59,683 nucleotides of DNA from Polyangia bacterium (GCA_036268875.1 DATATI010000008.1:1-59683), one strand, 5' to 3'; numbered from the stretch's first letter, positions 2-11,684 are shown. A program made the numbers and translations. Notes: generated by a model not told the origin, from the sequence alone.

Positions 2-136
2 ACGCCACCCACGCAAATAGCCGCAGACTTGGCGGACCGATATGGCGTGCCGCTGGCGCAGGTCGCGGCGGACGTGGACCGGCTTTTCGAACAGATGATC
101 GCCCGCGGGATTCTGCGCGTCGCCGTCGATCGATGA
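2..136 (+). CDS. PqqD-like RiPP recognition protein (lasso B1), 3' end only
   Basis: This is the last 44 codons of a gene entering from the left edge, ending in TGA at 134-136. The visible part reads like the C-terminal helices of PqqD-family proteins, with a stretch DLADRYGVPLAQVAADVDRL followed by a short GILR segment. In lasso-peptide clusters this protein (B1) is the RiPP recognition element that binds the precursor leader and delivers it to the B2 protease and the C cyclase. Its stop overlaps the next start codon (ATGA at 133-136), so it is translationally coupled to the kinase gene. The assignment rests on the short C-terminal match and on the five-gene context. The N-terminal half cannot be seen. 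Confidence 0.72.
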   Translation, partial: TPPTQIAADLADRYGVPLAQVAADVDRLFEQMIARGILRVAVDR

Positions 137-1119
137 CGTCCTCAGGTCGCTTCAAGCTCTGCGAGATAACGCCGGGAGGCATTCTTCTCGATCTGTTGGT
201 GGGAAACGTTGTTCAGCTGAACGAAACAGCGACTCTTGTCTGGCAGTTGCATCTGTCGGGCGGTTCTGTCGACGAGATCGCGGCCGCTCTCGTCAATCGC
301 TATGGGATCGAAGCATCGGTCGGAAGAAGGGACGTGACCGCTGCATTGGCGATCGACCAGCTTGCGACGGTGTCCGCCGCGCCACCCGAATTTTCCTATC
401 GACGATCGGAACAGGGATATCTCTTCTCGCGATTAGACCAGGCGCTGTTCTTGGTGGACGAAGGAGGCGAGTCGCTGACCCTGGCGCCTGCCGCACGCCA
501 GGATGCCCAGATGGTGCCTTTTTATTTGCAGGGGATCGCTCCAAAGTTGCTGGCCCTCCGAGGTCACGCTGTTCTGCACGCGTCCGCAGTGGCGATCGGG
601 ACGGCCGCTCTGGCTCTTGCCGGAGCGAGCGGGGCTGGCAAGACGACCACGGCCAGGGCCATGGTACGGGCGGGTGCGTCTGCTGTCTGCGAAGACAAGC
701 TCCTCGTTCGAGTGTCGAATGGCGAAGTCCGTTGTTCACTCGGCGCCGAATCGACGATTGCGCGATGGACGACCAACATGGCCGAACAACTGGCGACCGA
801 TGGTCGAGCATCGTGCCACGGGCTGGATGCCGTCGCCGCTGGACCTGACGTCCACCTGCAAGAGCTCGGATTTTTGGATTCGCTTCGGCGGGGAGCGCCC
901 ACCGCGCGCCATCTTTCGCCGAACAGCGTCGCGGGCGCTGTTCTTCACCACTCCTTTTGGGGGTCGGACGTGGCCGACAAATGGGCCGAGCAGCTGGATG
1001 TCAGCATCGCGATGGGACGAGCCGTCCCTGGATTTGAGATGACGGCGGCGGAAGGAATCCCGGCGCTAGAGGCGGAGGCCCGCTCCTGGGTTGAGCGCGG
1101 TACTTTCAGAGCACCGTAG
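133..1119 (+). CDS. HPr-kinase-like protein with N-terminal PqqD-like domain (lasso tailoring kinase)
   Basis: 328 residues. Residues about 8-80 have the PqqD fold pattern (a GGILLDL...VVQLNETATLVWQL core, then helices around residues 46-78). Residues about 145-310 resemble the C-terminal kinase domain of HPr kinase/phosphorylase, with a P-loop GASGAGKT at 164-171 and an acidic CEDKLL motif near 186-191 where HPr kinases carry catalytic or metal-binding acidic residues. Family members encoded in lasso clusters (such as those for paeninodin and the Thermobacillus precursor) phosphorylate the precursor C-terminus, so a tailoring role is likely. The gene overlaps the upstream B1 fragment by ATGA and the convergent B2 gene by 14 bases. 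The PqqD domain fused to the kinase is notable because a separate B1 is also present; it may let the kinase bind the leader itself. Confidence 0.8.
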   Translation: MTSSGRFKLCEITPGGILLDLLVGNVVQLNETATLVWQLHLSGGSVDEIAAALVNRYGIEASVGRRDVTAALAIDQLATVSAAPPEFSYRRSEQGYLFSRLDQALFLVDEGGESLTLAPAARQDAQMVPFYLQGIAPKLLALRGHAVLHASAVAIGTAALALAGASGAGKTTTARAMVRAGASAVCEDKLLVRVSNGEVRCSLGAESTIARWTTNMAEQLATDGRASCHGLDAVAAGPDVHLQELGFLDSLRRGAPTARHLSPNSVAGAVLHHSFWGSDVADKWAEQLDVSIAMGRAVPGFEMTAAEGIPALEAEARSWVERGTFRAP

Positions 1120-1495
1120 TCGCATCAAACGCGCCGCCGGCCGGCCGGCGATCCGATTCGAGCCAGGCGTGGCCCGACCTAGGACCGCCGCCGGACTTGA
1201 ATCCGGCGAATAGATTCTCGCGCGCGGCCGCGCCGTCTAAACGGATCTCCAGCAGCGCTCGTCGCACGCAGTTGGGACCTCCCGGAACGTACCGATCAAC
1301 GGCGAAGATGAACCTTCGCAGAATCTGCCGAGCGTGGCTCGTGCGTGTCCGCAGCTTGCCGCCCGATCGTCGTGCCCGAGCGACCGCTTGATGCAGGCTG
1401 AGCGTGCGCCGCTGGTACTCGACGATCGGAACCGATCGAATGACCCGGAAAAGATCGGGGAGAAAAGCCAGGAGGGTTAGTCTCCCCTTCGTCAC
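1106..1495 (-). CDS. Lasso-peptide biosynthesis B2 protein, transglutaminase-like leader protease
   Basis: 129 residues from a GTG at 1495, two bases after the precursor stop region (TGA at 1500-1502). An ATG at 1552 would give 148 residues but would lie inside the precursor gene, so I prefer the GTG. The protein matches the B2 family: an N-terminal helical part, then PNCVRRAL with the expected nucleophilic Cys (residue 76) and SGHAWLES with the catalytic His (residue 109). Asp residues lie near the C-terminus. B2 cleaves the leader from the precursor with help from B1. Length is close to the family norm (about 130-150). Its 3' end overlaps the convergent kinase gene by 14 bases. Confidence 0.78.
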   Translation of the reverse strand: MTKGRLTLLAFLPDLFRVIRSVPIVEYQRRTLSLHQAVARARRSGGKLRTRTSHARQILRRFIFAVDRYVPGGPNCVRRALLEIRLDGAAARENLFAGFKSGGGPRSGHAWLESDRRPAGGAFDATTVL

Positions 1496-1499
1496 GATC

Positions 1500-1682
1500 T
1501 CAGCAGTTCGGGTTTCCGGAGAACTGTTGGCCACCCTCACACACGTCGTCAATTGAACCGGTGCCGCCAGCCAGCAACTCGCGAGCGTTACCCAGCGGGG
1601 TGAGCATAGGTGCCTCGTACCGGGGATGATGATCCCCTTGGCTTTTTCGCGGACTCTCGTTATCGGTCAATCCCTCTGGCAT
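1500..1682 (-). CDS. Lasso-peptide precursor (A)
   Basis: 60 residues from ATG at 1682, preceded by GAGGTGG about five bases upstream. An in-frame start at 1730 lies deeper inside the cyclase gene and lacks such a site. The leader carries the lasso signature Y-x2-P-x-L-x3-G (Tyr22, Pro25, Leu27, Gly31), the surface bound by the B1 recognition protein. The usual Thr at the penultimate leader position is Leu37 here. Counting from the signature places the core at Gly39-Cys60, beginning GGTGSIDDVC and ending GNPNC. The Gly1 amine could close a macrolactam on Asp8 (Asp46), or Asp7 (Asp45) as an alternative. Cys10 and Cys22 of the core could form a disulfide. The gene starts inside the 3' end of the cyclase gene (16-base overlap). 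Cleavage site and ring size are inferred, not shown. Confidence 0.8.
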   Translation of the reverse strand: MPEGLTDNESPRKSQGDHHPRYEAPMLTPLGNARELLAGGTGSIDDVCEGGQQFSGNPNC

Positions 1683-3565
1683 GTGGCCACCTCGCGGCAG
1701 GGATTGTAACAAGAAAGCCCGCGAAGCCAAGACTCAAGGCAGGCGAATTTCAAAAGGAGGGTCCAGGGCCCGTCGGACGAGAATGAGGCGGCTTTGTTCA
1801 AGATTATCCGAGCCTCGTTGCGTCGAACGTATGGCGCGCTTAACCAGGGACCCGTTTGAATCATCTTTCGGATGAATGCCTCCTGGCGCTGATCATTGAT
1901 CGCCCAGATCTGGCTGAATGACATTTGATCCACGCGATCATGGAACGCCGGCGGAAGCAGGGGACCCAAAGCATCTCGGCCGGTGCGGCGGAGGTGTCCC
2001 CGAGGCACCCGTTGATCCCATGGGATGGACAGAATGTGCTCGATGAGTCTCACGTCGGCATATGGGGTGCGGACCTCGATGCCTTCCTCGGAGCCATACG
2101 CGATTGCCTTGTTCAGGACCCACGTTACATTCGGTCCATTGAGTCGCGACCATAAGCTGAGCATCGTGTGGGAGGGCCAGGAAGCTGCTCCGTGTTCGAC
2201 CCTGGGAATCGAGGCAGAGTAATGTTCCTCGAGAACGGACCCTAGCCACATTGGGGATTTTCGGTGGCGGCGAAGGACCTGGTGCTTGAGCGAAAAGGCG
2301 GTCGCCGGTGGCAGGGCGCCGAGAGCGATTTCTCCGACGATCTTCAGTGCCCGGGCCAACGGCTTTACCAGTGCCTGCGTCTCGGACAGGATCTCCGACC
2401 AGCGGCCCGCGCGGAACATATCCATGAAAACCCCGTCGGCGTAGAGAAGCTCATCGCCGCCGATTCCTTCCAGAAGAACCCCGGCCCAACGCTCCTTGGC
2501 AATTTCCAGATCGCGCTTTCGCCCTCCTCCGAGGCCTCGCCGCAGACCAGGTTCAGCCAAAGTGGTCGCGGGTGCTTCCGCTTCAGCGACGGAATTCACG
2601 ACGTTCCAGGTGACCCACTCGAACGGCACGCGGCGTGCGACGGCTTCCATGTAGCGGCTGTCATCGCAGGGAAATCCGATCGTGAGGCCCGATGCCATGA
2701 TCAAGGGCGGTCGGCGACCTGGCTCGCGATAGGCCTCTTCGGCGGCCATCAGGATCGTGCTGGAGTCGAATCCGCCGCTGGAATGCGCGATGATCGGGAC
2801 GTCCGACTCCAGGCGATCGCGAACCGCTCGTCGAAACAGCGCCAGGAGCTCGGCGCAGTTCTCCTCGTATGATCGCGCCGGAGTCGCTGCAAGCGGAGGC
2901 ACCCAATAGCGGTCTTCGCGGCAACCGCGTTCGGTGGCAAGGAGGGTATGTCCGGCTGGTAGCAGGCGGACGTCGCGAAAATAGACTTCCCCTGGTCGGC
3001 GCGCCCAGGGGAAAAAAAAGCTCGAGATAGAGGCCGGGTTCACTCGCTCGTAAGGACGGTCCAGAAATGGTAAGAGGCTGATGACCCGGCTCGCGATGAC
3101 AAGCCCGTCCGTGGTCGCCATGTAGTGCATGGGCCTGACCCCTGTCTGATCTCTGGCGGCAAAGAGTTCCCTCGCCTTTTCGTCCCAGACCATGAATGCA
3201 AAGTCGCCCACGAGATGTTTCGGCGCCTGTCGGCCCCAGGCCCGGTAGGCGTGAAAAGCGACTTCGAGGTCGCTGATAGCCGGCCCAGCGTCCAGGTCCA
3301 GGTCGAGAGCGATCGCCAGTTCGGGGCGGTTGTAAAGGCGAACGTCACCGAAGACCAAGAGCTGCTGGTCCTGATCCCAGACCGGGATCGCCCGTTCATC
3401 GCGTCGCACGACGTGCCAGCGCTTGATGGCGGCGCAGCCATGCGCAGACGAGGCGGTTTGCACCCCGTCGCATCGGTCGGTGCGAGCGGCGTCCAGCATC
3501 GCTTCGACTCGTTCCCGGCAGTCTGTCCTGGAAGAAAATGCGAAGGCGGCCGCGAATTCAAACAT
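1667..3565 (-). CDS. Lasso-peptide macrolactam synthetase (asparagine-synthetase-like, C)
   Basis: 632 residues. The N-terminal third has the class II glutamine amidotransferase fold pattern but begins MFEF, without the Cys2 of active glutaminases. The C-terminal part is an asparagine-synthase-like adenylation domain with PP-loop HSSGGFDSS at 261-269. Lasso C proteins use ATP to adenylate the side-chain carboxylate of an Asp or Glu in the core and close the isopeptide ring with the N-terminal amine. It is first in the minus-strand block C-A-B2, with A starting within its last codons. The ATG at 3565 lies in the 3' arm of a perfect inverted repeat (3560-3598), and the only Shine-Dalgarno-like bases (GGAAGG) fall in or near the loop. 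The next in-frame Met (residue 23) would delete the first strands of the fold, so I keep the upstream start. Confidence 0.85.
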   Translation of the reverse strand: MFEFAAAFAFSSRTDCRERVEAMLDAARTDRCDGVQTASSAHGCAAIKRWHVVRRDERAIPVWDQDQQLLVFGDVRLYNRPELAIALDLDLDAGPAISDLEVAFHAYRAWGRQAPKHLVGDFAFMVWDEKARELFAARDQTGVRPMHYMATTDGLVIASRVISLLPFLDRPYERVNPASISSFFFPWARRPGEVYFRDVRLLPAGHTLLATERGCREDRYWVPPLAATPARSYEENCAELLALFRRAVRDRLESDVPIIAHSSGGFDSSTILMAAEEAYREPGRRPPLIMASGLTIGFPCDDSRYMEAVARRVPFEWVTWNVVNSVAEAEAPATTLAEPGLRRGLGGGRKRDLEIAKERWAGVLLEGIGGDELLYADGVFMDMFRAGRWSEILSETQALVKPLARALKIVGEIALGALPPATAFSLKHQVLRRHRKSPMWLGSVLEEHYSASIPRVEHGAASWPSHTMLSLWSRLNGPNVTWVLNKAIAYGSEEGIEVRTPYADVRLIEHILSIPWDQRVPRGHLRRTGRDALGPLLPPAFHDRVDQMSFSQIWAINDQRQEAFIRKMIQTGPWLSAPYVRRNEARIILNKAASFSSDGPWTLLLKFACLESWLRGLSCYNPCREVATCQRD

Positions 3566-3609: not shown

Positions 3610-6600
3610 TTAGTAGAACACGACGACGCGGCCGACGGTGGGTGCGGTCGCCGTCTCGCCGATGGCGAAGTCACCGAATCCATCTCCGTTCAAATCGGGG
3701 AGCACAGTGGTTCCGGCGTAGCCGCCCCACGTACCAGGGACCGACGGCGGCGGAATCTGATTGTTGACCTTGACGACGATCGGGATCACGCCGGTTCCCA
3801 GCGCGGTGGGTCCGATGGTGGACACGTCCAGGTTTCCGGGTGGCAGGCTGGAAATGGCGGTGCCGTTGATGATGTAAAGAGGCCCGGCGTTCGTGACGCC
3901 GGCCTCCGTCAGACCGCCGACGATCAGATCCGGGATCGAATCGTCACCAATGACTGACACGCTGCCGGTGGTTCCCCGGACGCCGCCCCCGAGATTGACC
4001 GCACCGAATGAATTCGAAGCGGCGCTGTCGGTGAGCGTCGTTTTGGCCGCCGAATTTGTGCCGCCGCTGGTGTTGAACGGGCCGCCCAGCGCGGTCCCGA
4101 TGTGGATGTCGATGTGGCTGGCGACGGTCGACGCGATGGTGACGCCGTTCGGGGACCCTCCCAGCGGACCCAGCACGCCCACCGTTCTGGTGTAGTCAGT
4201 GTGAGCAGCGTCGGTGACGACCTGGGAAGCGGTGGTCATCGGCCCGGCGAAAGCGTACGCCGTTCCATTCCCGGTATCGCCGACCATCAGGGTCGAACCG
4301 GCCGCGGCCGAGAAGAACTGACCCAGACCGACCAGGGTCGCGCCAAAGAACGAGTTGGCCGCGGTGCCGTCGATCTCGATGGTGTTGGTGGGCGTCACCT
4401 CCGGGATGGTCAAGGTCGCCGGGAAAGAGCCGCTGCCCTTGATGACCAGCACCGAGCCTTTTTGTCCCGCCCCGCCGGTGAAGCCGGAGAATCCGACGGC
4501 GAAGTCCTCTATGCCGTTTACATCAGCATCAAAGTTACCCAATCGGCTGATCGGTCGTTGAGACAGCTTGCCGGAGAACAGGCTTCCGGCTTGAACCGTG
4601 ATGGTGTATTTCGCGTTCCCTTCGTTCAGCCCGGTCGGCCAGCTGGCGCCGAAATTGGGACTCTTCCGGCTGAAGATCCAGATCGTGTCGCCGCTGGCGG
4701 CATTCGTCACGCTGGAGCTGACCGCGATGTCATCGAGCTTGTCGCCGTCGATGTCGCCGACGTTTGCTACCGCCAATGTCGAGACGGCTCGGGCCCCGAT
4801 TGTAATGGTGGTCGCGTTGGCCAGTGAGTATCCCGCCGCCGTTCCAAAGTAGATCCAGACCGTGTTGCCGCCTCGGCTGCCCACCAAAAGGTCGGAGAGC
4901 TTGTCTTTGGTGAACGTGCCGTCGGGGCTTCCGAAATCACCCGTGTCAACCGTGAACCCCGCGCCTGGCCCGGTCAGGACAGTGGGAAGAAAGTTGGCGG
5001 TCTGAGCGCTGGAAGTCGCCACGATCGGACCACGATTGCCGGCGGCGTCGACCGCTGCCACCGCGAAGAAGTAGCCGAGCTCGATATTCAGATCGGGGAC
5101 GACAATTGCGTCAGCTACGCCAACCGCGTGCGGCATTCCCGTGAACGGGATGTCTTTGGTGACGATCAAAAGCGGGTTGGATTGGTTCGCCGCGGTCTGA
5201 TCGAAGTTCGTGTCGTCGATCTTCACCTTGGCGACGCGGACCTGATAACCCGCCACATTCCTGCCGTGGTCATCCGGCGCGTTCCAGGTGAGCGGGAACG
5301 ACGACTGGCGTCGCTGCTGGTTGGTCTGCATTCCGACCGCGAGGACGGTCACTGCGTCGGGCGGCAACGTATCGACGTTCACCGTCACCGTCCCAACGCC
5401 GATCCCGTGTGCCGGGACGTCGTCGGTGGTCGCCGTGAACGTCACCGCTGGCCCTTCCGGAACGACGTTCGTGGTGATCGCCAGGGTGGCATCACCGTTC
5501 ACGTTCAGCATCGCCGTTCCCAGCGTCGTGGCTCCAATCGAGAACGTGACGTTGGTGCTACCCAGCGCCACGCCGCCCACCGTGACGTGAGCGGTGATTG
5601 AGCCCTGCCAGCCGGCTGTTCCGGTATCGGTGTCATCGATGCAGCCGGTGCCGGTGGAGCCGCTGGCGCAAAGCTGCTGGGTTATCAGTGGCGTCGAGAA
5701 CGACACGGCCGGTGCGCCGCCAACGGTCACGGTGCAAGGTGCCAGCGCCGTCATGTTTCCAGCGGGATCGGTGGCCACTGCCGCCAGGCTGTTCTGGCCT
5801 TGATCGAAGTTGACCGCGGTGAACGTGGCCACACCTCCGACCACGGTGGGATTTGAATGGGTGACGGTCGACGCACCGTTGGTCACCGTCAACGTCACGG
5901 TGGCCGTATCCGAGTTCAAGGCGACGTCGGTCGTGAACGTTCCCACCGCCTGCTGGAAACTGCCGCACAGCGCCCCCGGCGACAGCAAGGAAATGACCGG
6001 CTTCACTGTGTCGACCCAGACATCGAGCGGCGTGCTGCTGCCTGTGGCTGTGGAGAGGTCCGTCAGGTCGACGCGCAGCTCGGTGGCGGCGGTCAAGGCG
6101 CCGCTGGCATTTTCCGTGCTCTCGGGCAGCGTGACGCCCGGGAAATTGGCCACGAAGCCCAGTCCGGCTGGGCATTCATTGGCCCCCGCCGCGACCGTCG
6201 CGACCGCGCTGCCCAGCGTCACCAGCGATGCGTCGCCGGCGTGCCCCACGAACAGCTGAGCCATGCCGCTGCGATCGCTGCAGGCTTTGACGTTCGTCTG
6301 TGCGCCCGTGCCGTTGAGGATGTGCTTGGATGGATCGCTGAACGTTGGCGCATCCGAGACCGGATTGACGATCCGCACGGTCGGCAACGTCGAGGAGCAG
6401 GAGACGCCGGTGATGGTCTTGTTGGTGGTGTTTCCGGCGCCATCGTTCAACGTCACAGAAATATCGAACGGCGCGCCGCCCGGGCAGGTGAAATCCACGC
6501 AGGCATCGGTACCGACCGCGGCGACGGCGGCGCAGTTGGTAGTGCCGGTGATGCAGAAATTGGTGGCGCGCGCGCCCAGCGACGGCGCCAGATTCACGGC

Positions 6601-7719
6601 ATCGGTCGCTGTGGTTTGGCCGCAGACCTTGAACTTGCCGGCCGTCAGATCCGTCGGTCCGAAGAACGCCCCGTTGGCCGGCTTGGAAATGGTCAAATTG
6701 GGCGGTGTCGTATCGACGGTAAACGTGCCCTTCATGGACGACCCGACGACGCCGTTCTTGTCCGTGCACTGGGCGACCACTTCGTACGTTCCGTCAGGAG
6801 CCAGTGTGACGCCGCCAAACATTGCCTTGCCGCTGGTGGCGGTCCCGCTGACGGTGCTGACGGTGGCCGGGCTGGCCGCGTTGTCGATCTTCAGGGCCAC
6901 GGTGCGGCCATCGTCGATGTTGGTCGTCACCTCGAACGCGGTCTGATAGGGCGAGCCGTCCGGGCTGATGCGATCGCCGCCATTGCCGACGGGGATCCCA
7001 TTCAACGTGGCGTGGGCTGGTTTGCTGATCGTGCAGGCCGGAACGTTGCAATTGACGGTGACCTTGGCCTTGGTGGTGGCGTCGGTGCAGGGCACGGTGC
7101 TGGGGAACTGAATCGACAACGACGTGTCCCCCGTCGGCAACTGCACGGCGGAGAACGTGGCCGCGCCGGCGGCGATCTTGGCGGTGGCCACCATGACGTT
7201 GCTGGCGAACAGGCTGACGTCCGTTCCATCGGGCGCGTCGGCCGAATTGATCTTCACGTCGTACTGGAATCCATTGGCGCACAGATCGCCGTCCTTGTCG
7301 TCGGCCGCGGTCAGCGTCGCTTGGTCCAGCGGTTTGACGAACGCGACCATGAAGCAAGCGCGCGCGACTTCGCTGGTGTCTCCCGGCGCGTCGGTGTTGC
7401 CGTCGGCCGGAACGTCGCCAGTTTCCGCGTGATCGGCCGGAACGTCGGCGGTTTCGCTGCGATCGGTCTGGACGTCGCCGGTTTCGCCGGTGTCCGCGCG
7501 GTCGGTGATCACATCGCCGGTCTCGGCGCTGTCTACTTTGGCGTCGGCATCTTTGCTGTCGATCCCCGCGTCGCCGGCGTGTCCGCCGCTGCCTCCGCTT
7601 CCGGAGCCGCCGGTTCCACCGTCAGGCTGCGCTGGCGTGTCGTCGCCGCAGCCGACTGCGAGCACGCCAAAAAGCACCACGAAGGAAATTGAAGCCAGTC
7701 GAAGCCGTCCGGTCACCAT
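3610..7719 (-). CDS. Large secreted lipoprotein with Ig-like, fibronectin III-like and FG-GAP domains
   Basis: 1369 residues from ATG at 7719, which has GGCGGAGG five bases upstream; a start at 7761 would lack this and would extend the signal peptide. A lipoprotein signal peptide ends in AVGC. Next come a Gly/Ser-rich stretch and an acidic Asp/Thr/Glu linker made of about 10-residue repeats. Several Ig-like modules of roughly 90-110 residues occupy bases about 5400-7330. A fibronectin III-like module lies around bases 4990-5370. FG-GAP/integrin-alpha-like repeats, with calcium-loop-like D-x-D/N-x-D-G segments such as DLNGDGFGD, fill the C-terminus. Such proteins sit on the outer membrane surface and bind ligands or matrix; no ligand can be inferred. 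It reads toward the lasso block but is separated from it by the hairpin at 3560-3598. Confidence 0.8.
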   Translation of the reverse strand: MVTGRLRLASISFVVLFGVLAVGCGDDTPAQPDGGTGGSGSGGSGGHAGDAGIDSKDADAKVDSAETGDVITDRADTGETGDVQTDRSETADVPADHAETGDVPADGNTDAPGDTSEVARACFMVAFVKPLDQATLTAADDKDGDLCANGFQYDVKINSADAPDGTDVSLFASNVMVATAKIAAGAATFSAVQLPTGDTSLSIQFPSTVPCTDATTKAKVTVNCNVPACTISKPAHATLNGIPVGNGGDRISPDGSPYQTAFEVTTNIDDGRTVALKIDNAASPATVSTVSGTATSGKAMFGGVTLAPDGTYEVVAQCTDKNGVVGSSMKGTFTVDTTPPNLTISKPANGAFFGPTDLTAGKFKVCGQTTATDAVNLAPSLGARATNFCITGTTNCAAVAAVGTDACVDFTCPGGAPFDISVTLNDGAGNTTNKTITGVSCSSTLPTVRIVNPVSDAPTFSDPSKHILNGTGAQTNVKACSDRSGMAQLFVGHAGDASLVTLGSAVATVAAGANECPAGLGFVANFPGVTLPESTENASGALTAATELRVDLTDLSTATGSSTPLDVWVDTVKPVISLLSPGALCGSFQQAVGTFTTDVALNSDTATVTLTVTNGASTVTHSNPTVVGGVATFTAVNFDQGQNSLAAVATDPAGNMTALAPCTVTVGGAPAVSFSTPLITQQLCASGSTGTGCIDDTDTGTAGWQGSITAHVTVGGVALGSTNVTFSIGATTLGTAMLNVNGDATLAITTNVVPEGPAVTFTATTDDVPAHGIGVGTVTVNVDTLPPDAVTVLAVGMQTNQQRRQSSFPLTWNAPDDHGRNVAGYQVRVAKVKIDDTNFDQTAANQSNPLLIVTKDIPFTGMPHAVGVADAIVVPDLNIELGYFFAVAAVDAAGNRGPIVATSSAQTANFLPTVLTGPGAGFTVDTGDFGSPDGTFTKDKLSDLLVGSRGGNTVWIYFGTAAGYSLANATTITIGARAVSTLAVANVGDIDGDKLDDIAVSSSVTNAASGDTIWIFSRKSPNFGASWPTGLNEGNAKYTITVQAGSLFSGKLSQRPISRLGNFDADVNGIEDFAVGFSGFTGGAGQKGSVLVIKGSGSFPATLTIPEVTPTNTIEIDGTAANSFFGATLVGLGQFFSAAAGSTLMVGDTGNGTAYAFAGPMTTASQVVTDAAHTDYTRTVGVLGPLGGSPNGVTIASTVASHIDIHIGTALGGPFNTSGGTNSAAKTTLTDSAASNSFGAVNLGGGVRGTTGSVSVIGDDSIPDLIVGGLTEAGVTNAGPLYIINGTAISSLPPGNLDVSTIGPTALGTGVIPIVVKVNNQIPPPSVPGTWGGYAGTTVLPDLNGDGFGDFAIGETATAPTVGRVVVFY
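7411..7540 (-). repeat. Short tandem repeat coding an acidic Asp/Thr/Glu linker
   Basis: About four degenerate 30-base units (starts near 7411, 7441, 7471 and 7511; one unit is 9 bases longer) encode versions of the decapeptide SETGDVxTDR. They lie just after the lipobox region of the large lipoprotein and probably form an extended, acidic spacer that lifts the folded domains off the membrane. Unit number may vary between strains. Confidence 0.6.
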
Positions 7720-7789
7720 AGGGCCTCCGCCGAGGGTCTGTAGACGAAAATGATGGGGCATCTTAGAGATTTTTCCGCACCGTGGCTAG

Positions 7790-8608: not shown

Positions 8609-9576
8609 CTAGCCGCCGGCCTTCAGCTTTTTGATCTCGCTGATCAGCGCCGGAATGGCCGCTTCCCAGGTTGTCACGAGACCATAGTCGGCGACCTGGA
8701 AGATCGGCGCCTCGGGATCCTTGTTGATCGCGACAATGACCTTCGAGCCCTTCATGCCCGCCAGGTGCTGGATCGCGCCCGAGATCGCCACCGCGATGTA
8801 AAGCTGCGGCGCCACCACCTTGCCGGTCTGTCCGACCTGCAGATCGTTCGGGACCATGCCGGCGTCGCAAGCGGCGCGGCTGGCGCCCAAGGCGCCGCCC
8901 AACAGATCCGTCAGCTGCTCCAGCACCTTGAAGTTTTCGCCGGCCTTCATGCCGCGACCGCCGGAGACCACCACCTTGGCTTCGCCGAGATCAGGGCGCG
9001 CGCTTTTGGTGGCGTGCAGCCCGACCACCTCGGCGCCCAGGGCGTCGATGGTGCCCGGCGACGCGTTCTCGACGGCGCCAGCGCTGGCGGAGGCCGCCGC
9101 GGGTGTGAACTCGGTCTGGCGGACGCTGGCGACGATCACGGCGCCGGAAAGCTCGACCTCTTCCAGGGCATTGCCGGCGTACGCGGGCCGGCGAAACCGG
9201 TTCGGTCCCAGCACGGCGGTCACGTCGGACGCCATTCCGGCGCCCAGCAGCGCCGCCGCTCGCGGCAAGAAATCTTTTCCCGTCGAGGTGGCCGTGCCCA
9301 GCAGGGCGCCGGCGCCCGCGCGCTTGACCGCGTCGGCCAGCAATGGCGCGTGCGTCTCGGCCAGCGGCGCGGCCAGCTTGGGATCGTCATAGGCGATCAC
9401 CTTGGCGGCATAACGGGCGGCATCCTGCGCCGCCGCGGCGACACCGGCGCCGATCACCACCGCGGTGACAGTGCCGTTTTGTTGCTTGGCCAGCGCGGCG
9501 CCTGCCGTCAGCGCCGGCAGCGACGCCGAGCGAATGCCCTTCTCGGTGGTCTCGCAGAAGACGACGACACCGGCCA

Positions 9577-9577
<1 letters not shown>
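8609..9577 (-). CDS. etfA: Electron transfer flavoprotein alpha subunit
   Basis: 322 residues, the usual length. The C-terminal FAD domain shows the family signature: VGQTGK at 248-253 and [19 protein letters not shown] at 257-275. With EtfB it forms the heterodimer that carries electrons from acyl-CoA and other flavin dehydrogenases to ETF:quinone oxidoreductase. Its ATG overlaps the etfB stop (ATGA at 9577-9579 on the minus strand), so the two are translationally coupled. No dehydrogenase gene is adjacent, so the electron donors must be encoded elsewhere. Confidence 0.96.
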
Positions 9578-10398
<821 letters not shown>

Positions 10399-10407
10399 GC
10401 CGCCAGG

Positions 10408-10911
10408 TTACCCCACGGCAAGGCGCAACGCCTCTTCCATGCAGAAAAGGATCTCGTCATCGATGTCGATCAAATAGACCGTGGCCGGCTTGGGCTGGCG
10501 GTGCGCGCGCAGCTCGTCGACCATGGCGCGGGCGGCGTCTGCCGGGTCCACGCCGCCGAGGCCCGTGCCCATCCCGGGGATGGCAATGACCTCGAACCCG
10601 TGGCGGGCGGCGGCCAGCAGCGCGGCGCGGGTGGCGCGGCGGACGTTCTCGACGCCGATCTTCGTTCCCGGCTGCTCCATCGTCGGCGCGTGGATGACGT
10701 GTTTGGCCCACAGCTGCCCGCCGTTGGTGACCACGGCTGCTCCGACGGCGATGGGAGCGAGCGACATGGCTTCGCGCTGGACGGTGGGACCGCCTTTGCG
10801 TGACAGGGCCGCTGCCACCCCTCCACCCATGATTCCTAGCGAGTTGGCTGGGTTGACTACCGCGTCCACAGCCATCGCGGTGATGTCGCTTTTGGCGAGA
10901 TGTATCTGCAT
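10408..10911 (-). CDS. Macro domain protein (ADP-ribose or derivative binding/hydrolysis)
   Basis: 167 residues, essentially a single macro domain. The ligand loops are visible: VVNPANSLGIMGGGVAAAL near 18-36 and PGMGTGLGGV near 111-120. Macro domains bind ADP-ribose, and many hydrolyse O-acetyl-ADP-ribose or remove ADP-ribose from proteins or nucleic acids. The NPAN...GGGV arrangement fits an active deacetylase/hydrolase subtype, but that is inference. It lies between carD and etfB on the same strand, 9 bases before etfB, which suggests co-expression with electron-transfer genes; no functional link is obvious. Confidence 0.88.
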   Translation of the reverse strand: MQIHLAKSDITAMAVDAVVNPANSLGIMGGGVAAALSRKGGPTVQREAMSLAPIAVGAAVVTNGGQLWAKHVIHAPTMEQPGTKIGVENVRRATRAALLAAARHGFEVIAIPGMGTGLGGVDPADAARAMVDELRAHRQPKPATVYLIDIDDEILFCMEEALRLAVG

Positions 10912-11050
10912 GTGCAGGACGAGACGGGCCAGCAGATTACCATCTTCTCTCGCTTCGGCGAAGAAAAGTGGCGTGCCCTGTGCGGCGAGGCCCGCAAAAG
11001 CGGTGTGGCGCTGGCGCTCACCGCGAACGCCTCTGCTTGCGGCCGATTGC

Positions 11051-11539
11051 CTAGTTGAACAAACGATCGAGCTCTTGCTCGACCTTGCGCGAATCGGAGG
11101 CGCGCGCCACCGATAGCTCTTGCACGATAAGGCCCCGGGCGGTGTCCAGCATGCGCCGCTCGCCGAATGACAACGGCTTGAGGCCCTTCAGTCGATAAAG
11201 ATCGCGGAAGACCTCGGCCACCTCGAACAGCGAGCCGGACTTGATCTTCTCCATGAACCCGCGATAGCGCCGGTTCCAGGTCTGACGGTCGATGTGGATC
11301 TCCTTGTCGCGGAGGATCTGCATCACCTCTTTGATCTCATCCTGACCGGCGATCGGTCGCAGACCGACCTGCTCGGCTTTGTCGGTGGGGACCAAGATGC
11401 GCAAGCCGTTGTCCATTGCTCGCAGGACGTAGAAGCTTTGGATCTTTCCGAAGATCTCTTTCTTCTCGATCCCGACGATCTCGGCCACACCTTGGGATGG
11501 GTAGACTGCTTTGTCTCCGATTGAGAATTCGGCTGACAC
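11051..11539 (-). CDS. cdnL: CdnL/CarD-family RNA polymerase-binding transcription factor
   Basis: 162 residues from GTG at 11539, which has GGAGG seven bases upstream. This start gives the usual length (about 160-165); upstream starts would add a 33-residue unlike extension. The N-terminal RNAP-interaction domain starts with FSIGDKAVYPSQGVAEI, and the C-terminal helical DNA-binding domain includes WNRRYRGFMEKIKSG. CdnL binds the RNAP beta subunit and stabilises open complexes at promoters such as those of rRNA; it is essential in Myxococcus xanthus. Myxobacteria also have the larger CarD with an HMGA-like tail; no such tail is present here, so CdnL is the better name. A candidate promoter lies at 11685-11714. 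Confidence 0.92.
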   Translation of the reverse strand: MSAEFSIGDKAVYPSQGVAEIVGIEKKEIFGKIQSFYVLRAMDNGLRILVPTDKAEQVGLRPIAGQDEIKEVMQILRDKEIHIDRQTWNRRYRGFMEKIKSGSLFEVAEVFRDLYRLKGLKPLSFGERRMLDTARGLIVQELSVARASDSRKVEQELDRLFN

Positions 11540-11684
11540 GTCCTGTCCTCCTTCACGCACTTCCAAAAATCGCGCAGTCCGCCCCATCACCAACCCGCCG
11601 CTGCCGCGTTGCCCTTCCCCCCAATGACAACGCAACACACGGTAACCGCTGATGAAACATCAAGACAGCCTACGTTGGCCCACA

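Follow-up and report, generated by a model that had tools for sequence, protein, structure and literature searches.

The window analysed in this work, a stretch of 59,683 nucleotides, forms the start of a contig (G000:C8:1) in a 6.15 Mb genome of 95 contigs, and its first 3.6 kb hold a lasso-peptide biosynthetic cluster which, judged by its sequence, is genuine and belongs to a Myxococcota (Polyangia-like) bacterium. The genes follow each other as B1 (truncated where the contig begins), K, and then B2, A and C, with B1-K on the plus strand and C-A-B2 on the minus strand, converging on K (Table 1). Neighbouring genes are tightly packed: the ATG of K overlaps the B1 stop, A begins within the 3′ end of C, and 4 nt separate the A stop from the start of B2. 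An initial annotation had seen five lasso genes together at 2-3565, and each enzyme is indeed backed by family models at that place; this gene set was right, but it had been overlooked that K carries a fused RRE, that the two gene groups converge, and that an FG-GAP gene follows past the stated end.

Table 1. Genes of the lasso cluster and the adjoining lipoprotein gene in the window.
Gene	Product	Position	Strand	Basis
B1	Stand-alone PqqD-like RRE, 5′ end missing at contig edge	2-136	+	PF05402
K	N-terminal RRE (PqqD) fused to HprK-like kinase domain	133-1119	+	PF05402, TIGR04355/TIGR04352 partial
B2	Transglutaminase-like leader peptidase, GTG start at 1495	1106-1495	-	PF13471, NF033537
A	Precursor, 60 aa	1500-1682	-	Sequence and homologues in G011, G002, G239
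C	Lasso cyclase, asparagine synthetase-like	1667-3565	-	NF033535, PF00733
FG	Predicted lipoprotein, 1383 aa, 44 nt upstream of C	3610-7761	-	Pfam, lipobox, recurrence

The partial B1 frame corresponds to the C-terminal half of PqqD (PF05402, 30.3 bits, over the cut-off, profile 32-67), and full-length counterparts are found in two relatives, G011 (L034:956-1432) and G002 (L035:10534-10839). B2 exceeds the cut-offs of both PF13471 (33.8 bits) and NF033537 lasso_biosyn_B2 (34 bits). The best NCBIfam match of C is the lasso cyclase NF033535 (221 bits, E=2.3e-65, under the model's exception-type cut-off), the asparagine synthase model scoring lower (157 bits); PF00733 gives 93 bits, and residue 2 is Phe, the glutaminase Cys of AsnB being absent. 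The enzyme motifs pointed out earlier are all present, i.e., the Cys/His pair of B2 (GGPNC and SGHAW), the P-loop of K and the PP-loop of C (SGGFDS).

The precursor would consist of a leader, MPEGLTDNESPRKSQGDHHPRYEAPMLTPLGNARELLA, and a core, GGTGSIDDVCEGGQQFSGNPNC, the cut between them being predicted from the Y(-17)/P(-14) spacing together with Gly1/Asp8. Its motif, YEAPML...LLA before the cut and GGTGSIDD after it, with the YxxP leader, Gly1 and Asp8, is kept in relatives; the core also has Thr3-Gly4, Ser17 in the tail and a C-terminal Cys, and leader position -2 is Leu, not the usual (non-obligatory) Thr. Because the match to the lasso leader model NF033521 (17.2 bits) lies slightly under the cut-off of 19, the call of A rests mainly on comparison, the position and motif of the precursor being kept in G011, G002 and G239. 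The cluster is more than a product of chance, since A, B2, C and K are arranged alike in an independent genome, G011, the precursor of which is recognisably homologous and the C and K of which are 35% identical to those of the window. This genome was deposited as ‘Myxococcota bacterium’ MAG LS_ISSM_2_bin.42, and further relatives carry the labels Myxococcales or Polyangiaceae, from which we read the class as Polyangia; this bears out the earlier placing of the cluster, with its kinase, in a Myxococcota-like genome. The order FG-C-A-B2><K-B1 is identical in G011 and G002, of the same family and different genera.

K is a fusion protein, residues 17-72 of which form a PqqD domain (PF05402, 42.6 bits), followed by an HprK-like P-loop region that matches TIGR04355 at 40 bits (far below the cut-off of 200) and PF07475 at E=0.01. 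Its motif residues, H149, G164, G167, G169, K170, T171, E187 and D188, match the bsf-type kinase motif H-G-G-G-K-S/T-D/E-D; relative to the essential residues of BsfK, S is replaced by T and D by E, both conservatively. A structural model (pLDDT 74, three sequences) gives a b3a3 winged-helix RRE and then the HprK-like domain; its best solved-structure matches are HprK/P 3tqf and 1kkl, and a further match, of 85 columns, is to the leader complex of the lasso B1 protein TbiB1 (5v1u). Three other fused PqqD-kinase proteins of the class (in G239, G120 and G262) each adjoin lasso genes. None of the 590 pattern matches from a scan of the genome contigs with the K alignment was confirmed. The partial, below cut-off matches to the HprK models, and the occurrence of HprK-like genes at radical-SAM loci too, could mean that K is no peptide kinase and serves, by virtue of its RRE, as an additional chaperone that binds the leader or as a helper dependent on NTP. 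We find this unlikely, given that K retains the positions required by BsfK in the P-loop, the His and the ED motif, and that those HprK homologues of lasso clusters which have been characterised act as kinases; K is a predicted kinase.

The predicted lipoprotein FG, with the lipobox AVGC, combines domains of the Ig-like/fn3 kind with an FG-GAP propeller, resembling that of integrin alpha, at its C-terminus. The FG-GAP, fn3 and Big_13 models of Pfam stay below cut-off in the window copy, FG-GAP passing it in homologues, and the C-terminal structural model is of low confidence (pLDDT 56), so that its matches to integrin alpha propellers serve as support only. A profile from six lasso-adjacent copies was searched over 318 genomes of the class; these seeds having been chosen by position, the counts rest on non-seed loci alone. 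Among 38 such loci, read in order of FG score and not randomly, 31 are RiPP loci. Radical-SAM genes adjoin FG in 23 of them and lasso genes in 8 (L105, at a contig end, being assigned by K/B1 alone, and L096 first met via its K). The other seven have neither, at least two of them (L042, L144) being cut at contig ends; L045, also among these seven, is contig-truncated, yet has PqqD. The seven best non-seed homologues adjoin lasso genes in six cases and radical-SAM genes in one. FG leads C in the window, G011, G002, G239 and G266, diverges from B1 in G222, G223, G224 and G214, and stands within the operon in G210 (B2-FG-B1-C-A-K). Phylogenetic analysis of 40 FG proteins unites 12 lasso-linked copies in a single clade (SH-aLRT 100), whereas that of G026, also lasso-linked, falls outside it on a long branch; the partner chemistry must have changed twice on this tree, the second change depending on that branch. 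The FG matches listed by a phylum-wide search at E<=1e-40 all belong to the class of the window, with none from Bradymonadia among them. A P value of 3e-24 for FG-B2 adjacency was set aside, as it assumes independent genomes and includes seed loci. The genome itself has an FG paralogue (G000:C2:80525-82582; L041:6526-8598), shortened and without adjoining RiPP genes, which shares 77% identity with the window FG in the C-terminal half.

Loci combining radical-SAM genes with an FG-GAP lipoprotein are L043, L044, L112, L114-L117, L126, L128-L138, L140, L141, L143 and L145. Most of these 23 also have PqqD, HprK-like genes and, directly after FG, a small YxxP peptide with a FETLALSC..C-like motif, and the scores of their radical-SAM proteins against GeoRSP/PqqE-type models stay under the cut-offs; these loci apparently constitute an undescribed RiPP family. 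GeoRSP/PqqE-like radical-SAM systems share with the window cluster the PqqD RRE and, in Polyangia, also the YxxP peptide, the HprK-like gene and the FG-GAP lipoprotein, whereas a radical SAM/SPASM maturase replaces B2 and C and the peptide contains Cys in its FETLALSC-like motif.

FG is a recurrent member of the cluster, a linkage well supported by the counts. An FG-GAP protein also borders the bsf cluster, where it was called ‘presumably not involved’ (PMC10368454), and the same judgement could be passed here, FG being an unrelated neighbour and its adjacency coincidental, especially as the paralogue on C2 and seven non-seed homologues (at least two of them contig-cut) show no RiPP genes. Yet the linkage repeats in several families across varied gene orders and orientations, with FG inside the G210 operon and gaps of few nt, and the best non-seed homologues are those beside lasso or radical-SAM genes, which makes coincidence improbable. 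FG is probably a partner protein common to two RiPP chemistries and overlooked so far. In the open-access literature searched, a link of FG-GAP to RiPPs, lasso peptides, radical SAM or PqqD is proposed nowhere, and the main texts of two RRE surveys do not mention kinases. Most likely, FG would be a dedicated partner that binds the mature peptide, carries it or acts as its receptor, at the surface or in the periplasm. More tentatively, it could be the dedicated partner of a Polyangia RRE+HprK RiPP chassis, in which the enzyme forming the ring was swapped, radical SAM for lasso cyclase or the reverse; we offer this as a real possibility that we would not yet bet on. Propeller proteins that bind small maturated subunits provide an analogue for such a pairing, and the FG propeller may likewise hold or display the small peptide, which would then not be a free antibiotic. 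A motif scan of the flanks of FG-lasso clusters, many of them short, found no ABC exporter, whilst one lies near a few FG-less clusters; the idea that FG replaces the exporter was dropped, given these short flanks and a weak ABC match at the FG-bearing L105.

As to the chemistry, the closest characterised case is BsfK of Bradymonas sediminis FA350, which phosphorylates the ring Ser3 of the BsfA core GTSGNEVD; a Thr at this position is accepted too, and the RRE protein BsfB1 speeds up the reaction (PMC10368454). The bsf cluster resembles that of the window in its A, B1, B2, C and K genes, in an aliphatic residue at -2 and the pattern G1-x-[S/T]3-G4-x3-D8 (BsfA has Ile(-2), G1, S3, G4 and D8; PMC10368454), and in the FG-GAP protein next door, a possible homologue of the window FG. 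It differs in that BsfK has no recognisable RRE, whereas the window K has a fused one, and in having D (an ABC exporter) and N (a nucleotidyltransferase), neither of which is seen in the window cluster. Position -2 is Ile in bsf and Leu here; Ile/Val exceptions to Thr(-2) being published (PMC10368454), a missing Thr does not disqualify a lasso cluster, and Leu widens the published pattern. The LPP RiPPs of Bacillota also pair a discrete RRE with an HprK-like kinase that modifies Ser3, but with a signal-peptidase-like protease and no lasso cyclase in the characterised cluster, and LppK does not phosphorylate an S3T variant (PMC13381572).

Comparison of 20 kinase-associated precursors separates fused from stand-alone K. 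Thr(-2) is found in 0/6 of the former and 14/14 of the latter (Fisher 2.6e-5), and [S/T]3-G4 in 5/6 and 2/14, respectively (Fisher 0.007); the fused-K genomes being related, both values overstate independence and describe clustering, not independent events. The 14/14 figure is also slightly flattering, as two stand-alone-K precursors in which Thr(-2) or a clearly defined boundary is missing, G228 (without Thr(-2)) and G266 (with it), were left out of the 20. All fused-K precursors have Leu/Val(-2), and five of the six follow G1-x-[S/T]3-G4-x3-D8, a count that depends on core boundaries set with Gly1/Asp8 in mind and on hand-read precursors in G239, G120 and G262; the exception is G002, with Asp3. 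In G120 and G262 (L092:9291-9452, L093:7362-7901; cores GKSGEEPD... and GKTGAASD...) the spacing from the leader Tyr to Gly1 is one residue shorter. Enrichment of C-terminal Ser in stand-alone-K clusters (3/14) is not significant (Fisher 0.52); stand-alone-K relatives with such an end include G223, G224 and G210.

These patterns bear on where K would act. As BsfA shares the fused-K precursor pattern and BsfK, aided by an RRE, phosphorylates it at Ser3, leader-guided phosphorylation of the ring Thr3 by K is predicted by analogy, at a site three residues from the leader, where a leader-tethered kinase might be expected to act. The initial annotation had instead taken the cluster as paeninodin-type. 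In that type (PadeK, ThcoK, SyanK) the kinase phosphorylates a C-terminal Ser (PMC8498205), and K would then modify the tail, at a C-terminal Ser or a nearby Ser/Thr, and not the ring. The likeness is real, comprising split B1/B2, an HprK-homologous K (PMC8498205) and an asparagine synthetase-like C, and Ser17 in the tail of A and the Ser-ending stand-alone-K relatives could be read in the same sense. Nevertheless, paeninodin kinases require the C-terminal Ser and go with Thr(-2), whereas the core here ends in Cys, preceded by a Leu(-2) leader and accompanied by an RRE-fused K, and none of the six fused-K precursors ends in Ser. Tail phosphorylation is therefore improbable, and the wording ‘otherwise kinase-modified’, also used in the initial annotation, fits the sequences better. 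Ser-ending precursors are seen in the Polyangia lasso clusters L094, L098, L109 and L106, with a stand-alone K in the first three, and the class thus seems to harbour kinase clusters of either kind.

Ring phosphorylation would fit into a proposed pathway. K would bind the leader via its own RRE and phosphorylate Thr3; B1 would next present the leader to B2, which would cut after ...ELLA; and C would link Gly1 to Asp8, closing an 8-residue ring, the two tail Cys perhaps forming a disulfide and FG serving as partner. The monoisotopic neutral masses calculated for the predicted product are 2122.83 as a lasso, 2120.82 with the disulfide and 2202.80 as a phosphorylated lasso. Taken whole, this course of events seems to us reasonably probable. 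Among the points against it is that BsfA with Leu at -2 is less phosphorylated and its cleavage by BsfB2 nearly abolished (PMC10368454), Leu(-2) being nonetheless present here, so the enzymes must differ from those of bsf. That C merely makes asparagine, like common synthetases, and that the small ORF is spurious, a case the initial annotation had itself raised and which the PF00733/GATase_7 architecture of C recalls, is scarcely credible and in practice refuted, since Cys2 is missing, the lasso cyclase model outscores that of asparagine synthase, and B1/B2 and a precursor of conserved position and motif (in G011, G002 and G239) accompany C.

The class of lasso cluster is already known; what is new is the RRE-fused K with Leu(-2) and Thr3, and the most surprising part is the FG-GAP linkage. 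If the interpretation is correct, phosphorylation of the lasso ring extends to Polyangia, by a kinase reading the leader itself, and the rule of a fused RRE, an aliphatic -2 residue and Ser/Thr3-Gly4 could be put to the test on existing clusters. Similarly, a large lipoprotein accompanying both lasso and radical-SAM peptide loci hints at the purpose of orphan peptides, a question usually unanswered. As for the history of the cassette, ETF alpha and CarD genes lie near it in the window (8609-11659, beyond FG) and in G002 (L035:11343-14508, beyond B1); these being opposite sides, the arrangement suggests that the cassette, FG included, was inverted or moved as a unit.
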